NCBI RefSeq assembly: GCF_000426365.1
Contig: NZ_AUFF01000002.1
Span: forward strand, 186,001-250,000
DNA from: Arenimonas composti TR7-09 = DSM 18010
GTDB lineage: Bacteria > Pseudomonadota > Gammaproteobacteria > Xanthomonadales > Xanthomonadaceae
Length of the DNA: 64,000 bases
Direction of reading: 5' to 3'
Numbering within the stretch: position 1 is the first letter of the stretch; each line of letters starts with the position of its first letter. A program made the translations under genes and the position numbers. The notes below the pieces were generated by a model. That model was not told the origin of the DNA. It was given only the letters and a program-made list of their open reading frames with translations, and ran no database searches. Positions 506 to 52,285 of the stretch are shown here, piece by piece.

Positions 506-1885
506 TTACCCGAACGCGACGTAGCAGACGCCACAAAGCACACAAACCCCAACCACATCCAACACCGCCCCCTCCCGCAGCATGTCCTGCGCCGACACAT
601 GCCCCGATCCGTAGGCGATCGCATTCGGGGCGGTAGCGACGGGCAGCATGAAGCCCACGCTCGCGGCGAGCACCGCCGGAAACATGAAGAGCGCCGGATC
701 GACACCGACGGCGCTGCCGGTGGCGGCGAGGATCGGCATCAGGAGCACCGCCGTCGCGGTATTGCTGGCGACCTCGGACATCAGCACGACGCTGCCGACG
801 ATGCCGACCAGCAGCAGCGGCAGCGGCAATGCGCTCAGGCCGGAGAGCGACACCGCCAGCCGGTCGCTGAGTCCCGAACTCTGGAACGCCGCCGCCAGCG
901 CGATGCCGCCGCCGAACAGCACCAGCGCGCCCCAGGGCACCTTCTCGGCCGTTTCCCAGTCGAGCAGGCGGCTGCCGCGGCCGTCGGGAATCACGCACAG
1001 CACGACGACGGCGAGCAGGGCGATGCTGGCGTCGTTGGCGCCATCGAGGCCGAGCGCGCCGCTCCAGCCGCCGAAGGGTTCGCTGCGGAAGATCCATGCG
1101 GCGGCGGTGAGCGCGAACACCGCGAGCACGCGCCGCTCGGCCGGCGACCACGCACCGGTCTCCGGCAGTTCCGCCGCCGGCGCGCCGGCGAGGCGTCGGC
1201 CCAGCCACAGCCCGAGCAGCGGCAGGAACAGCAGCACCACCGGTACGCCGATCGCCATCCAGTCGAGAAAGCCGTAGCGGGAGCCGGTGACGTCGGCGTA
1301 GACCTGCATGAAGACCAGGTTCGGCGGCGAGCCGATCGGGGTGCCGAGGCCGCCGATGCTGGCCGCGTAGGCGATCGCCAGCACCAGCGGTGCGTGCAGG
1401 CGGCGGTCCGGATAGGTCTCCAGGATCGCCATCGCGACCGGCAGCATCAGCAGGGTCGTCGCGGTGTTGCTGATCCACATGCTGATGAAGCCGGTGGCGG
1501 CGATGAAGCCGTAGAGCAGGTGGCGGCCGCTGCGGCCGCCGAAGGCGCGCACCATCGCCAGTGCCAGCCGGCGGTGGCCGCCGCTGCGTTCGAGCGCGCG
1601 CGAGAGCATGAAGCCGCCGCCGAGCAGCAGGATGAGTTCATGCCCGTAGCTCTGCGCGACCTGTCGGGCGTCGAGCACGCCGAGCACCGGGAAGGCGGCG
1701 AGCGGCAGCAGCGCGGTCACCGGGGCCTTCACCGGCTCCATCACCCACCAGGTCGCGCACCAGACGGTCAGCGCGACGGTCGCGGCCAGGGCATGCGATT
1801 CGCCGCTGCGATCGACCAGCATGTAGGAGAGCAGGGCGAGCAGCGGGCCGGCGATCAGTGCGGCCTGGCGGGCGGGGTGGGCCAT
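506..1885 (-). CDS. SLC13/DASS family anion (dicarboxylate) transporter
   Basis: 459 aa, about 11-12 hydrophobic segments, inner membrane. Two inverted-topology SNT motifs typical of sodium-coupled dicarboxylate/sulfate carriers are visible: SNTATTLLMLP in the first half and SNTATAVLLMP in the second, the latter followed by the ATAPNAIAYGSG signature near the C-terminus. Substrate is probably a C4-dicarboxylate or related anion; this cannot be resolved by sequence alone. The frame stays open upstream to 2368, but the ATG at 1885 starts the first membrane segment directly and avoids overlapping the DUF2061 gene and the REP at 1929, so it was preferred. Confidence 0.88.
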   Translation of the reverse strand: MAHPARQAALIAGPLLALLSYMLVDRSGESHALAATVALTVWCATWWVMEPVKAPVTALLPLAAFPVLGVLDARQVAQSYGHELILLLGGGFMLSRALERSGGHRRLALAMVRAFGGRSGRHLLYGFIAATGFISMWISNTATTLLMLPVAMAILETYPDRRLHAPLVLAIAYAASIGGLGTPIGSPPNLVFMQVYADVTGSRYGFLDWMAIGVPVVLLFLPLLGLWLGRRLAGAPAAELPETGAWSPAERRVLAVFALTAAAWIFRSEPFGGWSGALGLDGANDASIALLAVVVLCVIPDGRGSRLLDWETAEKVPWGALVLFGGGIALAAAFQSSGLSDRLAVSLSGLSALPLPLLLVGIVGSVVLMSEVASNTATAVLLMPILAATGSAVGVDPALFMFPAVLAASVGFMLPVATAPNAIAYGSGHVSAQDMLREGAVLDVVGVCVLCGVCYVAFG

Positions 1886-1928: not shown

Positions 1929-1953
1929 ATCGCGCCTGAAGGCGCTCCTACAG
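1929..1953 (-). repeat. REP-like palindrome, type A
   Basis: Core GGCGCTCCTACAG preceded by the complementary GCGCCTGAAG arm; the palindromic part is GCGCCTGAAGGCGC. Same sequence as copies near 19.3, 24.4, 39.0, 39.2 and 63.5 kb. It sits between two minus-strand genes. Confidence 0.85.
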
Positions 1954-16910: not shown

Positions 16911-17519
16911 CTACTCCGGCTGGGGTTCCAGCGTCACCACATAGCGCATCGGTCCGCCAGCCGCGACCGCGTCGAAGGGCCAGCAGGTCACCAGCACCAG
17001 GCGGTCCGCAGCCGCCGTCACGTCCAGGCGTGTCGTGCGCGAATCGACCACTTCACTGCCGGCCACGGTCCAGCGGCTGATGCCCGACGCCGCTTCCAGT
17101 TCGACGACGTCGCCATGCTGCAGCTCTCGCAGCCATTCGAAGTGGCTGTCGCGGTGGCCGCTGATCACGGTGGTGCCGGTGGTGCCCGGCGCGGCGCTGG
17201 CTTCGGCCCAGCCGGGGCCGAAGGCGAGGGGGCGGCCGGCGTCGCCGGCGAGCACGATCTGGCTCCGGCCCAGGCGTGGCGCCGACAGGCGCGCCACCGG
17301 ATGGGTATCGGCCCAGGGCCAGGGACGGTGGGCGCCGCCGTCGCCACGCGCCTGTTCCCAGGCTTCGCCGAGCAGATGCTGCGCCAGCGCCGCCTTCGCC
17401 GGCATCCAGCCGGCGTGCAGCGCGAGCACGGCGGCGACGGGCAGAAGAAGCCGCGCCAGCCAGCGAGGGCCACGCGCGGCCGGGCCTGCATCCGCGCCCG
17501 ATGAAAGCTCCGGACTCAG
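16911..17519 (-). CDS. class GN sortase (dedicated proteobacterial sortase)
   Basis: 202 aa if started at CTG 17519. One N-terminal membrane anchor (LARLLLPVAAVLALHAG) precedes a sortase domain with the PWPWADTHPVARL block typical of class GN and the triad His in ISGHRDSHF, Cys in LVTCWPFD and Arg in PMRYVV. It should cleave and anchor the VIT/VWA protein encoded upstream. Start: no ATG, GTG or TTG lies at a sensible place; CTG 17517-17519 overlaps the TGA of the 88-aa gene as CTGA, as in coupled translation. The frame is open to 17798, but that ATG lies in the ribosome site of the small gene. Confidence 0.88.
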   Translation of the reverse strand: MSPELSSGADAGPAARGPRWLARLLLPVAAVLALHAGWMPAKAALAQHLLGEAWEQARGDGGAHRPWPWADTHPVARLSAPRLGRSQIVLAGDAGRPLAFGPGWAEASAAPGTTGTTVISGHRDSHFEWLRELQHGDVVELEAASGISRWTVAGSEVVDSRTTRLDVTAAADRLVLVTCWPFDAVAAGGPMRYVVTLEPQPE

Positions 17520-17782
17520 CCGGCGACGGCGATCGCGGCCTGCGGCATCGGCTGCAGCTGCGGCAGCGGCACGGCGACCGGGCGCACCGGTGCGGGTGCC
17601 GGCACGACCTGCAGGCGCGGCTTCAGCGGCAGCGGCCGGCGCGCCGGGGTGACCGCGTGCTTCGCGGCGGTCGCTTCCGGGCACGGCCAGCCCATGTTGC
17701 GCAGCGCCTGCTCCAGGGAGCACCGACGCGGTTCCTGCGGGATCGGCTGCAGGTCCGTTGCATTCTCGACGACCAGGATCAT
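17516..17782 (-). CDS. small proline-rich protein between sortase and its target
   Basis: 88 aa, not recognised. It has excellent translation signals: AAGGAG seven bases before ATG 17782. The N-terminal half is globular-looking with two cysteines (RRCSLEQALRNMGWPCPEA); the rest is Pro/Val/Leu-rich (VVPAPAPVRPVAVPLP) with no membrane segment or signal peptide. It is sandwiched in the sortase operon and overlaps the sortase start by four bases, so it likely belongs to the same system. It is not the OmpA-like PdsO partner. Confidence 0.65.
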   Translation of the reverse strand: MILVVENATDLQPIPQEPRRCSLEQALRNMGWPCPEATAAKHAVTPARRPLPLKPRLQVVPAPAPVRPVAVPLPQLQPMPQAAIAVAG

Positions 17783-17881
17783 GGCGGGTCTCCTTCATGG
17801 CTTCAGCGGCGTGCGGGGGCTCGCAGCAGGCACATCACGAGCGTGCAGAAGACGCAGGCGGCGGCGCGATGGAGCATGGCG

Positions 17882-19978
17882 TCACCCGCGTGAGCGCAAG
17901 AGCAAGGCCGACAGCGTCGCGAGCGCGATCGCCAGCAGCAGTTCCGCGCGCCAGCCGAGGCTGCCCTGCGCGAACGCCAGCGAACCTTCCGGCGACGCGT
18001 TGTTCACGCGTGTGGTGCTCAGCGGTGCCGTCTGTGGTCGCGCCGGCGTGCGTTCGACCGCGACGAGGCTGGTGTAGCTGCTGACCAGCCCGTGCCGCAG
18101 CGCGGTGTCGACGATCAGCGGCCGCAGCGAAGCGAGCTCGCCACCGGCGCGCACCTGGTCCTCGAGCGCATCGATGCGTGCGCGCGCCCACAGGCGTCCG
18201 ACACCCGGCGCGATCACCGCGCGGTCGCCGAGTTCGATCTGCCGCACCCAGGGCTGCGGGCGCAAACCGCGCACGGTGACGTGGCCGTCCATCGCGCGCA
18301 GCTTCGCGACGACCTGCAGCGCCTCGCCGGCATAGAGGTCGGGCACGCGCTGCGGATAGGCGTCGGCGCCGGCCGGCCAGTCGAGCTGGATGTCGCGCAT
18401 TGCCGGGCGGTCGAGCTTCGCCAGCAGCTCGTCCATGCGTGCCGACACTTCCTGGATGTCGCGGATCACCACATGGGTGCCGCGGCCGAGTTCGGCCGCC
18501 TTGCGCAGGAAGTGGCCGTTCGGGGCACTGCCGATGCCGACCGGGAACAGCCGCGATTCGCCGCGTCCCGACTGCACCAGCGCCAGCAGTTCGTCCTCGT
18601 TGGAGATCGCCGCATCGGTGACCAGCACGACCTGGCGCAGGAATCCGGCCGGCGCCTGCCCGGCGAACGCGGCACGCAGCGCCGGCATCATCTCGGTGCC
18701 GCCGGCGGCGCGCAGCGAGCGCACGAAGGCGCGGGCGCGGGCCACGTTGCCGGGTTCGGCCGGCACGGCTTCCGGGAACAGCACGTCGAAGCTGTCGTCG
18801 AAGCGGATCACGTTGAAGCGGTCGCCCGGACGCAGGCGCGCCAGCGCGCGGTCGGCGCCTTCGATCGCCTGGCGCATCGACGCGCCTTCCATCGATCCGG
18901 AGTTGTCGATGACCAGCACGAGTTCGCGCGACAGCGGCGCCTGCGGCAGCGTCGGCGGCACCAGCATCAGCAGCGCGAAGTCCTCGCCGTGCACGCGGTC
19001 GGTGAACAGCGCGCTGCGCGGTGCGTCGCTCGGCACCGGCGCCCAGCGCAGCACGAAGTCGCGGTCGCTGCCCTCGACCCAGTGCGCGAGCACGACGCGG
19101 TGGATGCCGGCCGATTCGTGCACGTCGACGACGTGGCTGGGGCTTTCGACCACGGCCAGCGGCAGGCCGGCCTCGATCTCGGCGACCAGCTCGAAGGTCG
19201 GCGGCAGCGTCGAACCCATCACGCCACGCCCCTCCGCCGCTCCCGTAGGAGCGCCTTCAGGCGCGATCACCGAAATCTCGGAACTTCCGGAAGCAATTCG
19301 AACCGCAGGAGCGCCTCCCGGCGCGGTACCAGGGGAGGGGGGCATCGCGCCTGAAGGCGCTCCTACAGAAGGGGCGGGGGTGTAGCGGGGGGTGAATGTC
19401 AGTGGCAGCGACAGCGAGAAGACGCCATCGCGGAAGTCGACCGGCTGCCAGTAACGCACTTCGATCTCGACGGTCTCGCCGGGGCCGACGTTGGCGACCG
19501 CGGTCTGGAACAGGTTCGGCCGGTCCTGGGCGACGAGGCCGGCGCGGCGGCCGCTGGCGGCGGCTTCGGCGTAGACGCGCTGCGCTTCCTCCTTCTCGCG
19601 GATCTCGCCCTCGATCAGCCGCTCGCCGATGCGCAGCGTCAGCGCGCCGACCGCGGCGTTCTCCGGCAGCGGCAACAGATACCGGCCCTCGCGCCAGTCG
19701 CTGTCGGCGTTGACCCAGGTCTGCGTCACCGTGACCTCGGCGAGCAGGCCACGCACCTGCATCTCCACGCGGGTGTCCATCACCAGACCCGGCATCCAGG
19801 TGTCGCCGTCGCGCAGCAGCAGGCCGTTGCCGGCGCCGTCCGCGCGGGCGATCGCCGGCAACCCGGCGAAGAGGAAACCGATCAGCAGCATCATTCCCGC
19901 CCAGTAGCAGCGCACCGGCTGCGGCGGCCGCTGCAGGCGCCGGAACATGCGGGGTTTGCGGGTCTCGCGGATATGCAT
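17882..19978 (-). CDS. VIT and VWA domain sortase target protein
   Basis: 698 aa, the marine proteobacterial sortase target type. Order: N-terminal signal/anchor (CYWAGMMLLIGFLFAG), VIT domain (about 55-180), a linker, VWA domain (about 300-490) with MIDAS DNSGSME, and a C-terminal hydrophobic helix ending RSRG, as in sorting signals. AGGAGG lies six bases before ATG 19978. Odd points: no LPxT[AG]-like box is found before the C-terminal helix (nearest candidates RPQTA, 45 residues earlier, or FAQGS), and three REP palindromes are translated in frame at residues about 204-245. Confidence 0.9.
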   Translation of the reverse strand: MHIRETRKPRMFRRLQRPPQPVRCYWAGMMLLIGFLFAGLPAIARADGAGNGLLLRDGDTWMPGLVMDTRVEMQVRGLLAEVTVTQTWVNADSDWREGRYLLPLPENAAVGALTLRIGERLIEGEIREKEEAQRVYAEAAASGRRAGLVAQDRPNLFQTAVANVGPGETVEIEVRYWQPVDFRDGVFSLSLPLTFTPRYTPAPSVGAPSGAMPPSPGTAPGGAPAVRIASGSSEISVIAPEGAPTGAAEGRGVMGSTLPPTFELVAEIEAGLPLAVVESPSHVVDVHESAGIHRVVLAHWVEGSDRDFVLRWAPVPSDAPRSALFTDRVHGEDFALLMLVPPTLPQAPLSRELVLVIDNSGSMEGASMRQAIEGADRALARLRPGDRFNVIRFDDSFDVLFPEAVPAEPGNVARARAFVRSLRAAGGTEMMPALRAAFAGQAPAGFLRQVVLVTDAAISNEDELLALVQSGRGESRLFPVGIGSAPNGHFLRKAAELGRGTHVVIRDIQEVSARMDELLAKLDRPAMRDIQLDWPAGADAYPQRVPDLYAGEALQVVAKLRAMDGHVTVRGLRPQPWVRQIELGDRAVIAPGVGRLWARARIDALEDQVRAGGELASLRPLIVDTALRHGLVSSYTSLVAVERTPARPQTAPLSTTRVNNASPEGSLAFAQGSLGWRAELLLAIALATLSALLLRSRG
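19245..19368. repeat. three REP-like palindromes inside a coding sequence
   Basis: Copies at 19245-19268 (plus), 19305-19330 (plus, degenerate, GCGCCTCCCGGCGC) and 19344-19368 (minus). The first and last match the type A core GGAGCGCCTTCAGGCGC. They are read through in frame by the minus-strand VIT/VWA gene, encoding IAPEGAPTG and VGAPSGAM peptides. Confidence 0.9.
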
Positions 19979-22883: not shown

Positions 22884-24365
22884 ATGATTTCCGCCGAAGA
22901 ATTCGCCCAGCTCGCCGCCGCCGGCCACACCCGCATCCCGGTCGTGCGCGCGGTGCTGTCGGACCTCGATACGCCGCTGTCGGTATACCTGAAGCTCGCC
23001 GACGGCCCGCACACCTATCTGTTCGAATCGGTCGAGGGCGGCGAGACCTGGGGACGGCATTCGATCATCGGCCTGCCGGCGAAGCGCACCTGGACCTTTC
23101 GCGGCAACACCCTGGAGACCCGCGATCACGGCGAACTGATCGAGTCGCGCGAGGTCGCCGATCCGCTGGCCGAAATCGAGGCCCTGCGCGCGGCCTGGTC
23201 GGTGCCGCAGCTGCCGGGCATGCCGGCCTTCAGCGGCGGCCTCGTCGGCTATTTCGGATTCGAGACGATCGACTGGATCGAACCGCGCCTGGCGGCCTCC
23301 GGCGCGCACCAGCCCGACCACCTCGGCACCCCCGACGCGCTGCTGATGCTCAGCGACGAGGTCGCGGTCTTCGACAACCTCGCCGGGCGGCTCTACCTGA
23401 TCGTGCACGCCGACCCGTCGCAGCCGCAGGCGTATGCGCGTGCGCTGCGCCGGCTCGATGAACTCGTGCACCGCCTGCGCCATTCCGGCCGTTCGTATCC
23501 GGACGTGCTCGACCCGTCGCTGCTGCAGGAGGCCGACTTCGTCAGCGGTTTCACCCGCGAGGGTTTCCTCGCTGCGGTCGAGAAGGCGAAGGAATACATC
23601 CGCGCCGGCGACGTCTTCCAGGTGGTGCTCAGCCAGCGCATGAGCGTGCCGTTCCGCGCCCGCCCGGTGGACGTGTATCGCGCGCTGCGGGCGCTGAATC
23701 CCTCGCCCTACATGTATTTCCTCGACCTCGACGGCTTCCAGGTCGTCGGCAGCTCGCCGGAGATCCTGGTGCGCCTGCAGCAGGGCGAGGTCACCGTGCG
23801 CCCGATCGCCGGCACCCGACCGCGCGGCGCGACGCCCGAGGCCGATGCCGCGCTCGAGGCCGAGCTGCTCGCCGATCCGAAGGAGCGCGCCGAGCACCTG
23901 ATGCTGATCGACCTCGGCCGCAACGATGTCGGCCGCGTCGCCGAACCGGGCAGCGTGCGCATTCCCGACCGCTTCGTGATCGAGCGCTACTCGCATGTGA
24001 TGCACATCGTCAGCGAGGTCCAGGGCCAGCTGCGCGACGGCCTCGGCTTCGCCGACGTGCTGAAGGCGACCTTCCCGGCCGGCACCGTCAGCGGCGCGCC
24101 GAAGATCCGCGCGCTCGAGGTGATCCGCGAACTCGAGCCGGTGCGCCGCAACGTCTACAGCGGCGCCGTCGGCTGGCTGAACTGGTGGGGCGATGCCGAC
24201 ACCGCGATCGCGATCCGCACCGCGGTGATCAAGGACGGCCGCCTGCACGTACAGGCCGGCGCCGGCATCGTCCACGACTCCGATCCCGCGAAGGAATGGG
24301 ACGAAACGATGAACAAGGGCCGCGCCCTGTTCCGCGCCGTCGCCCAGGCCGCCTCAGGCCTGTAG
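22884..24365 (+). CDS. trpE: anthranilate synthase component I
   Basis: 493 aa. It makes anthranilate from chorismate with ammonia from TrpG, the first step of tryptophan synthesis. Visible: the N-terminal [45 protein letters not shown], and the C-terminal [13 protein letters not shown] with the chorismate site. An in-frame GTG lies two codons upstream (22878); the ATG fits family N-termini (MISAEEF) better. Its TAG stop falls inside a REP palindrome. trpG lies 4.1 kb downstream, separated by unrelated genes. Confidence 0.95.
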
Positions 24366-24384
24366 GAGCGCCTTCAGGCGCGAT
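24362..24384 (+). repeat. REP-like palindrome, type A, containing the trpE stop
   Basis: Starts GTAGGAGCG; the TAG at 24363-24365 is the trpE stop. It is followed by a degenerate stretch of CGCGGAT units (24391-24420) resembling the inverted repeat at 46.1-46.3 kb. Confidence 0.85.
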
Positions 24385-34247: not shown

Positions 34248-34345
34248 GCAGGAGCGGCTTCAGCCGCGATCGGTAGGAGCGGCTTCAGCCGCGATTCGCG
34301 CGCAGCGCGCGCGAGGGGGCATCGCGGCTGAAGCCGCTCCTACAG
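34248..34345. repeat. three REP-like palindromes, type B
   Basis: Plus-oriented copies at 34248-34270 and 34273-34295 and a minus copy at 34321-34345, with core GGAGCGGCTTCAGCCGC. Between copies two and three is a GCGCGCAGCGCGCGCG dyad. The head-to-head arrangement lies between convergent gdx and DUF488 genes and would fold into a large stem. Confidence 0.9.
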
Positions 34346-52160: not shown

Positions 52161-52285
52161 GCAGGAGCGGCTTCAGCCGCGATCCGCTCCTCACTCCTTC
52201 CCCTACCGGAAGGCACGCGCCTTCGGCGCTATCGCGGCTGAAGCCGCTCCTACAGACGGTATTGCGGCTGAAGCCGCTCCTACAG
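52161..52285. repeat. three REP-like palindromes, type B
   Basis: Copies at 52161-52183 (plus), 52231-52255 (minus) and 52261-52285 (minus; TTGCGG variant), core GGAGCGGCTTCAGCCGC. They fill most of the xerD-dsbC gap. Confidence 0.9.

Follow-up and report, generated by a model that had tools for sequence, protein, structure and literature searches.

How do mobile palindromes come to lie within the translated frame of a protein gene, and what becomes of the peptides that they encode? The question is raised by a gene of Arenimonas composti located in the window, as we call the whole stretch of DNA analysed (64,000 nucleotides, bases 186001-250000 of contig C2), in which REP palindromes are read in frame between the VIT and VWA domains.

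The REP array of the VIT/VWA gene

The gene (17882..19978, minus strand) is an open frame with a match to TIGR03788, the marine proteobacterial sortase target family (629 bits, cut-off 551.65). Its start codon was picked via alignment with congeners (MHxRETRKPR), and the protein has 698 aa when counted from the ATG at 19978. The adjoining open frame (16911..17798, minus strand, frame coordinates) holds a class GN sortase (TIGR03784, 205.7 bits, cut-off 158.25). TIGR03788 sortase targets are expected to carry a C-terminal sorting signal that is cleaved by sortase, and a C-terminal helix is predicted at residues 676-697. Surface anchoring of the VIT/VWA protein is a prediction that rests on the family match and the adjoining sortase.

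In the direction of the gene, the array begins with a perfect match to GTAGGAGCGCCTTCAGGCGCGA on the minus strand (19345..19366), read as VGAPSGAM (residues 205-211 and on), and ends with another on the plus strand (19245..19266), where the protein reads IAPEGAPTG, the REP itself giving IAPEGAPT (residues 238-245). The third copy, detected as a direct repeat, is degenerate (about 19305..19326, plus strand; 4 of 22 bases differ, counted by eye) and reads TAPGGAPA (REP peptide at residues 218-224). The outer GTAG ends of the array face outward, and array and flanks together form an imperfect inverted repeat assigned to neither strand (19231..19380), with arms of 37 nt (19231-19267 and 19344-19380) that are 89% complementary. 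When up to three mismatches were allowed, GTAGGAGCGCCTTCAGGCGCGA matched the window 13 times, against a maximum of 0 over 100 shuffles. The minus-strand frame is open through the array, and each of the two flanks scores as coding in that same frame. The original prediction of three in-frame REPs between the two domains therefore stands as to open frame and position, but one of the three copies is degenerate. Two plus-strand open frames over the array (18092-19354 and 18390-19385) were not accepted as genes, the codon model having called the minus strand here. An Rfam search round the array returned a single match, to a human lncRNA family and under the gathering score, which we put down to chance. 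Elsewhere in the window, clusters of a GGC/GCC variant of the REP lie between genes at 34248-34343 and 52161-52283.

The VIT/VWA protein was searched against 61 genomes from collections with one genome per species. Matches were found in 38, and the alignment took one frame per returned locus, giving 30 loci, the window's own and 29 others. The inter-domain stretch comprises 75 residues in the window protein (residues 216-290 of a 725-residue reading), against 46 to 57 residues in the 13 single-frame congeneric orthologues and the split one of G003, and 30 to 59 in the remaining 15 aligned frames. By eye, no REP peptides were seen in this stretch in any of the 29 other aligned frames. The linker segment is missing from the aligned orthologues, and none of these 29 frames encodes the same linker with non-REP DNA. 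The G003 orthologue (L049, L099) is split over two frames, by a frameshift or a sequencing error. In a structural model of the protein, built with 14 aligned sequences (mean pLDDT 67.4), residues 194-258 have pLDDT below 50 and are flanked by two beta regions. The REP-bearing linker is accordingly predicted to be disordered, low pLDDT in the insert being partly expected because relatives have gaps there. The best solved-structure match to the model is inter-alpha-inhibitor heavy chain 1.

The REP family and its putative mobiliser

Compared by eye, the 22-base core consists of GTAG, GA, a stem GCGCC/GGCGC round TTCA, and then GA(T). REPs of the GTAG superfamily have GTAG at one end and a short stem and loop, and GW bases and a 3-bp tail belong to GTAG-1 and GTAG-2 (PMC3733652, Table 1). 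The array elements show these superfamily features in their sequence, and we assign them at superfamily level. The exact core occurs 401 times in the genome (3,159,341 bases, 29 contigs), the highest number among the 61 genomes, against 0 for the reversed pattern; among congeners there are 110 exact copies in G015, 59 in G020, 49 in G018, 43 in G022 and 40 in G021. As in that superfamily, high copy number goes together with frequent facing pairs (47 facing neighbour pairs in the sample described below), and the elements are mostly intergenic, since 91 of 99 sampled clusters failed a test for being inside a gene.

Of five Y1_Tnp loci, L063 (G000:C2:479978-480241) is the single one bordered by these REPs to the left and to the right; the other four have none within about 1.5 kb on either side. 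At L063, a RAYT-type Y1-transposase gene (1360-1845, minus strand) lies between REPs at 1226-1324 and 1904-2034, so that a RAYT-type gene is flanked by REPs of the same family, as in a REPtron (PMC3733652). This gene is likely the mobiliser of the family. The sequence upstream of the outer GTAG is rich in C: in 62 outer copies, position -2 is C with a frequency of 0.73 and position -1 is T or C with a frequency of 0.92.

Coding REPs in the genome and their common frame

The census of coding REPs covered 99 clusters with 192 exact copies: 46 clusters on C1 (all clusters of listed copies), 38 on C2, 9 on C3 and 6 on C6, the C6 region having been selected through a linker match. A codon-usage gene caller was trained on window genes, after a first codon model had been dropped for having been trained on antisense frames. 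Clusters were judged by a flank-only test, which set the REPs themselves aside and asked that 240 bases to the left and to the right score as coding in a single frame, uninterrupted by stops across the cluster. Eight of the 99 clusters passed, in genes for LigA, IcmF, MazG, an ABC-F ATPase, a methyltransferase-like protein, the window gene and a molybdopterin oxidoreductase (two clusters). In the others, coding-like flanks differed in frame or strand (48 clusters), were present on one side only (32) or were absent (4); in the last 7, a stop separates flanks that are coding-like in one and the same frame, and a part of the REP insertions may therefore break genes. An unselected 398,992 bases gave 3 coding clusters out of 35, even though coding calls cover 88% of this sequence. 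Thus, REP insertion into genes is strongly under-represented yet present.

Three further arrays came to light by other means. The SucB array was found by the gene caller and fails the strict flank test; an Fe-S protein has REP peptides near its C-terminus, by open frame only; and the PurF array, reached via a peptide match, cleared a threshold that had been relaxed slightly (8, with scores of 45 and 49). PurF, on C4, was the only one to pass among five more peptide-match regions examined, those on C5, C12, C8 and C11 having failed. REP-bearing LigA, IcmF, SucB, MazG and PurF all exceed curated family cut-offs and the ABC-F protein passes one general ABC-F model, while the names methyltransferase-like, oxidoreductase and Fe-S reflect resemblance below cut-offs. 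The view of the REP segment as a portable linker gained support, since the same peptides recur in unrelated proteins of the genome. Two other parts of the original prediction fared worse: with 8 of 99 sampled clusters coding, coding REPs are not rare in this genome, and the other carriers (LigA, IcmF, MazG, PurF, SucB) speak against a special tie to a surface protein.

LigA is the clearest intragenic case in these sequences. The LigA family was matched in all 27 genomes of the genus, and the two matches in the window's genome are parts of one 875-residue frame, so that LigA is single there. Its insert adds about 50 residues with REP peptides at a turn that takes only a few residues in every one of the 24 congeners aligned (out of 26; the loci of G001 and G009 are fragmentary and were omitted). 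When set against E. coli LigA (2owo), query residues 278-329 stay unaligned, at a point bracketed by chain residues 160 and 164. The IcmF array occupies a linker of which congeners have a shorter version; of 17 aligned loci, two were uninformative at this site, and the insert is missing from the informative congeners. The IcmF gene also holds in frame (L113, about 2687-2760) a second, different palindrome-like segment, GGGGTCAGAGCCCATTTCC facing GGAAATGGGGTCTGACCCC, with a core word found at 3 places in the 490,497 bases of own-genome sequence covered.

By eye, four of the six frames through the REP core are free of stops. Nevertheless, in the eight strict arrays and in those of SucB, the Fe-S protein and PurF the copies read GAPSGA or APEGAPT, and the GGC/GCC variant gives, for example, AAEAAPT in the same frame. 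As a chance baseline, 99 of 225 open frames spanning a cluster (89 clusters) put every copy in this frame. Frame statistics were restricted to six arrays (LigA, IcmF, SucB, methyltransferase-like, ABC-F and MazG), of which SucB is a weak member. They omit the window array, which prompted the work, and also the C6 and PurF arrays, because these were found through linker-peptide matches, which favour the observed frame. All six retained arrays are in the one frame, and 0.44 to the sixth power is 0.007. This frame calls for a spacing of 1 mod 3 between facing neighbours, a value seen in all 5 coding pairs, that of the window included, compared with 13 of 42 non-coding ones. A general frame-keeping spacing of the REP pairs of this genome was not seen, as the non-coding facing pairs number 12, 13 and 17 across the mod 3 classes. 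We hold with moderate confidence, on these sequence counts from one genome, that intragenic REPs are biased to one frame.

A second phase of the same palindrome supplies a stop codon. Among 137 approaches to an outer REP, taken from the window, the C1 loci and the 399-kb sample and with a few entered twice owing to overlapping loci, 38 were genes running in, and 28 of these end on the TAG of the REP. The GAPSGA frame is entered by 8 of the 38 (6 internal, 2 as C-terminal tails) and the third frame, which is also open, by 2, both C-terminal tails; the window array itself fell outside the thresholds applied in this count. Within the window, the REPs at 24362-24383 (plus) and 1930-1951 (minus) each give a TAG stop to an incoming gene, the one ending at 24362-24383 presumably resembling an anthranilate synthase component.

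Two REP-rich relatives were also surveyed for a wider frame rule. No coding cluster was found among 33 in G015 or among the 26 of G027 that entered the test, a further cluster having been set aside for its short flank; the test is weak in G027, since none of 45 approaches there was a gene running into a REP. The dominant start-to-start spacing of facing pairs is 55 in G015 (13 of 26 pairs, L191-L210) and 46 in G027 (12 of 18, L171-L190), unlike the varied spacing in the window's genome. Both values are 1 mod 3, possibly by chance.

Probable origin and persistence of the in-frame palindromes

We consider it very probable that RAYT-mobilised GTAG REPs entered an inter-domain loop and survived there as an open-frame, Gly/Ala/Pro-rich and roughly inert disordered spacer. 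REPs of the GTAG superfamily would spread with the help of a RAYT transposase, and the L063 RAYT may have moved the present copies, by assisted insertion or array growth with C-rich sequence ahead of the outer GTAG. A group of REPs would thereby have been inserted where the gene encodes a variable loop between the VIT and VWA domains. Insertions that broke frame or fold would then have been lost, selection presumably removing other frames and sites. The array would have survived because it kept the gene open and because its frame gives a small, flexible, Gly/Ala/Pro-rich peptide, so that the segment would act as a roughly inert disordered spacer in proteins that are probably made and working. 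A like event would have taken place in at least six other genes of the sample, including the only LigA of the genome. Some observations count against this reading: the samples of G015 and G027 contained no coding cluster, two genes enter the third frame of a REP, although as C-terminal tails, and seven clusters have a stop between flanks that are coding-like in one frame.

Several other explanations were weighed. The translated segment could be a domesticated, useful linker, its length or flexibility being selected and REPs supplying ready-made spacers. The varying length of the VIT/VWA linker in relatives (30 to 59 residues vs 75 here) and the recurrence of REP segments in many proteins agree with this, but the targets are unrelated, and that they include the short turn of LigA suggests tolerance rather than need; we judge domestication very unlikely. 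A better case, though still an unlikely one, can be made for insertion that favours one codon phase, for instance at C-rich sites that encode proline, which would produce the uniform frame in the place of peptide selection. The bases before the outer GTAG are indeed C-rich and several arrays come after Pro or Ala-Pro residues. However, 28 of the 38 run-in genes enter the TAG phase and two the third, so insertion beside coding DNA is not limited to one phase. The second REP of every pair likewise keeps phase, whereas the spacings within non-coding pairs are spread roughly evenly over the mod 3 classes.

For other bacteria, roles of REPs as hairpins in RNA and as sites on DNA have been proposed (PMC3733652), and the array might work mainly in this way, as an mRNA hairpin or protein binding site with incidental translation. 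Such a role would require only an open frame, whereas the internal arrays hold a single one, and we give it as little credence as domestication. It is extremely improbable that the open frame is accidental, whether through faulty assembly, decay of the gene or a true start or stop of the protein elsewhere. Assembly often goes wrong at repeats, and there are 29 contigs in this genome, but eight independent clusters keep the frame between two coding flanks, and several carrier genes score above curated cut-offs, one of them being the only LigA.

Under the preferred reading, survival of RAYT-mobilised REPs as roughly inert spacers, mobile palindromes appear to have lengthened several core proteins, among them the only LigA. 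The positions of the inserts can be read against REP-free relatives, and every insert amounts to an insertion experiment done by nature that points to a tolerant loop; the uniform frame offers a testable rule for the survival of mobile DNA inside genes. A bolder proposal, which we regard as quite unlikely, is that these REPs are a protein-compatible family, with one phase giving a disordered Gly/Ala/Pro linker and another a TAG stop; the family could therefore persist both beside and inside genes. If this is true, the one-frame rule would hold for intragenic GTAG-type REPs of other bacteria.

Comparison with known systems

The Rickettsia palindromic elements (RPEs) are in-frame palindromes in many protein genes of one genome (PMC10969869, PMC3733652), and the likeness to the Arenimonas arrays lies there. 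RPEs are about 150 bp long and belong to other sequence families, the shorter RPE-4 and RPE-6 being CGTC-tagged repeats (PMC10969869, PMC3733652), whereas the Arenimonas element is GTAG-tagged with a 22-base core; thus, it is RPE-like in behaviour only. Known REPtrons share with the present system the high-copy GTAG palindromes in facing pairs, together with a single Y1-transposase gene that has copies of these REPs to either side, and the difference is that several Arenimonas copies lie inside genes as well as between them.

The closest precedent is the work of Di Nocera et al. (2013; PMC3733652), which describes intragenic GTAG-tagged REPs, frequently dimeric or grouped, that lie in frame in genes for unrelated proteins, among them the DNA ligase of O. 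terrae. REP-supplied TAG stops were also reported, and the inserts were suggested to be neutral in flexible linkers or loops. The Arenimonas REPs are the same kind of palindrome, in frame, with a DNA ligase case and TAG stops. The name Arenimonas does not occur in the main text of that paper, and a frame shared by intragenic REPs was not found stated in the passages covered by a search of open-licence papers; the peptides of the 2013 study are listed in its Additional file 3. Intragenic GTAG REPs are therefore already described, and the one-frame bias is the less familiar part.
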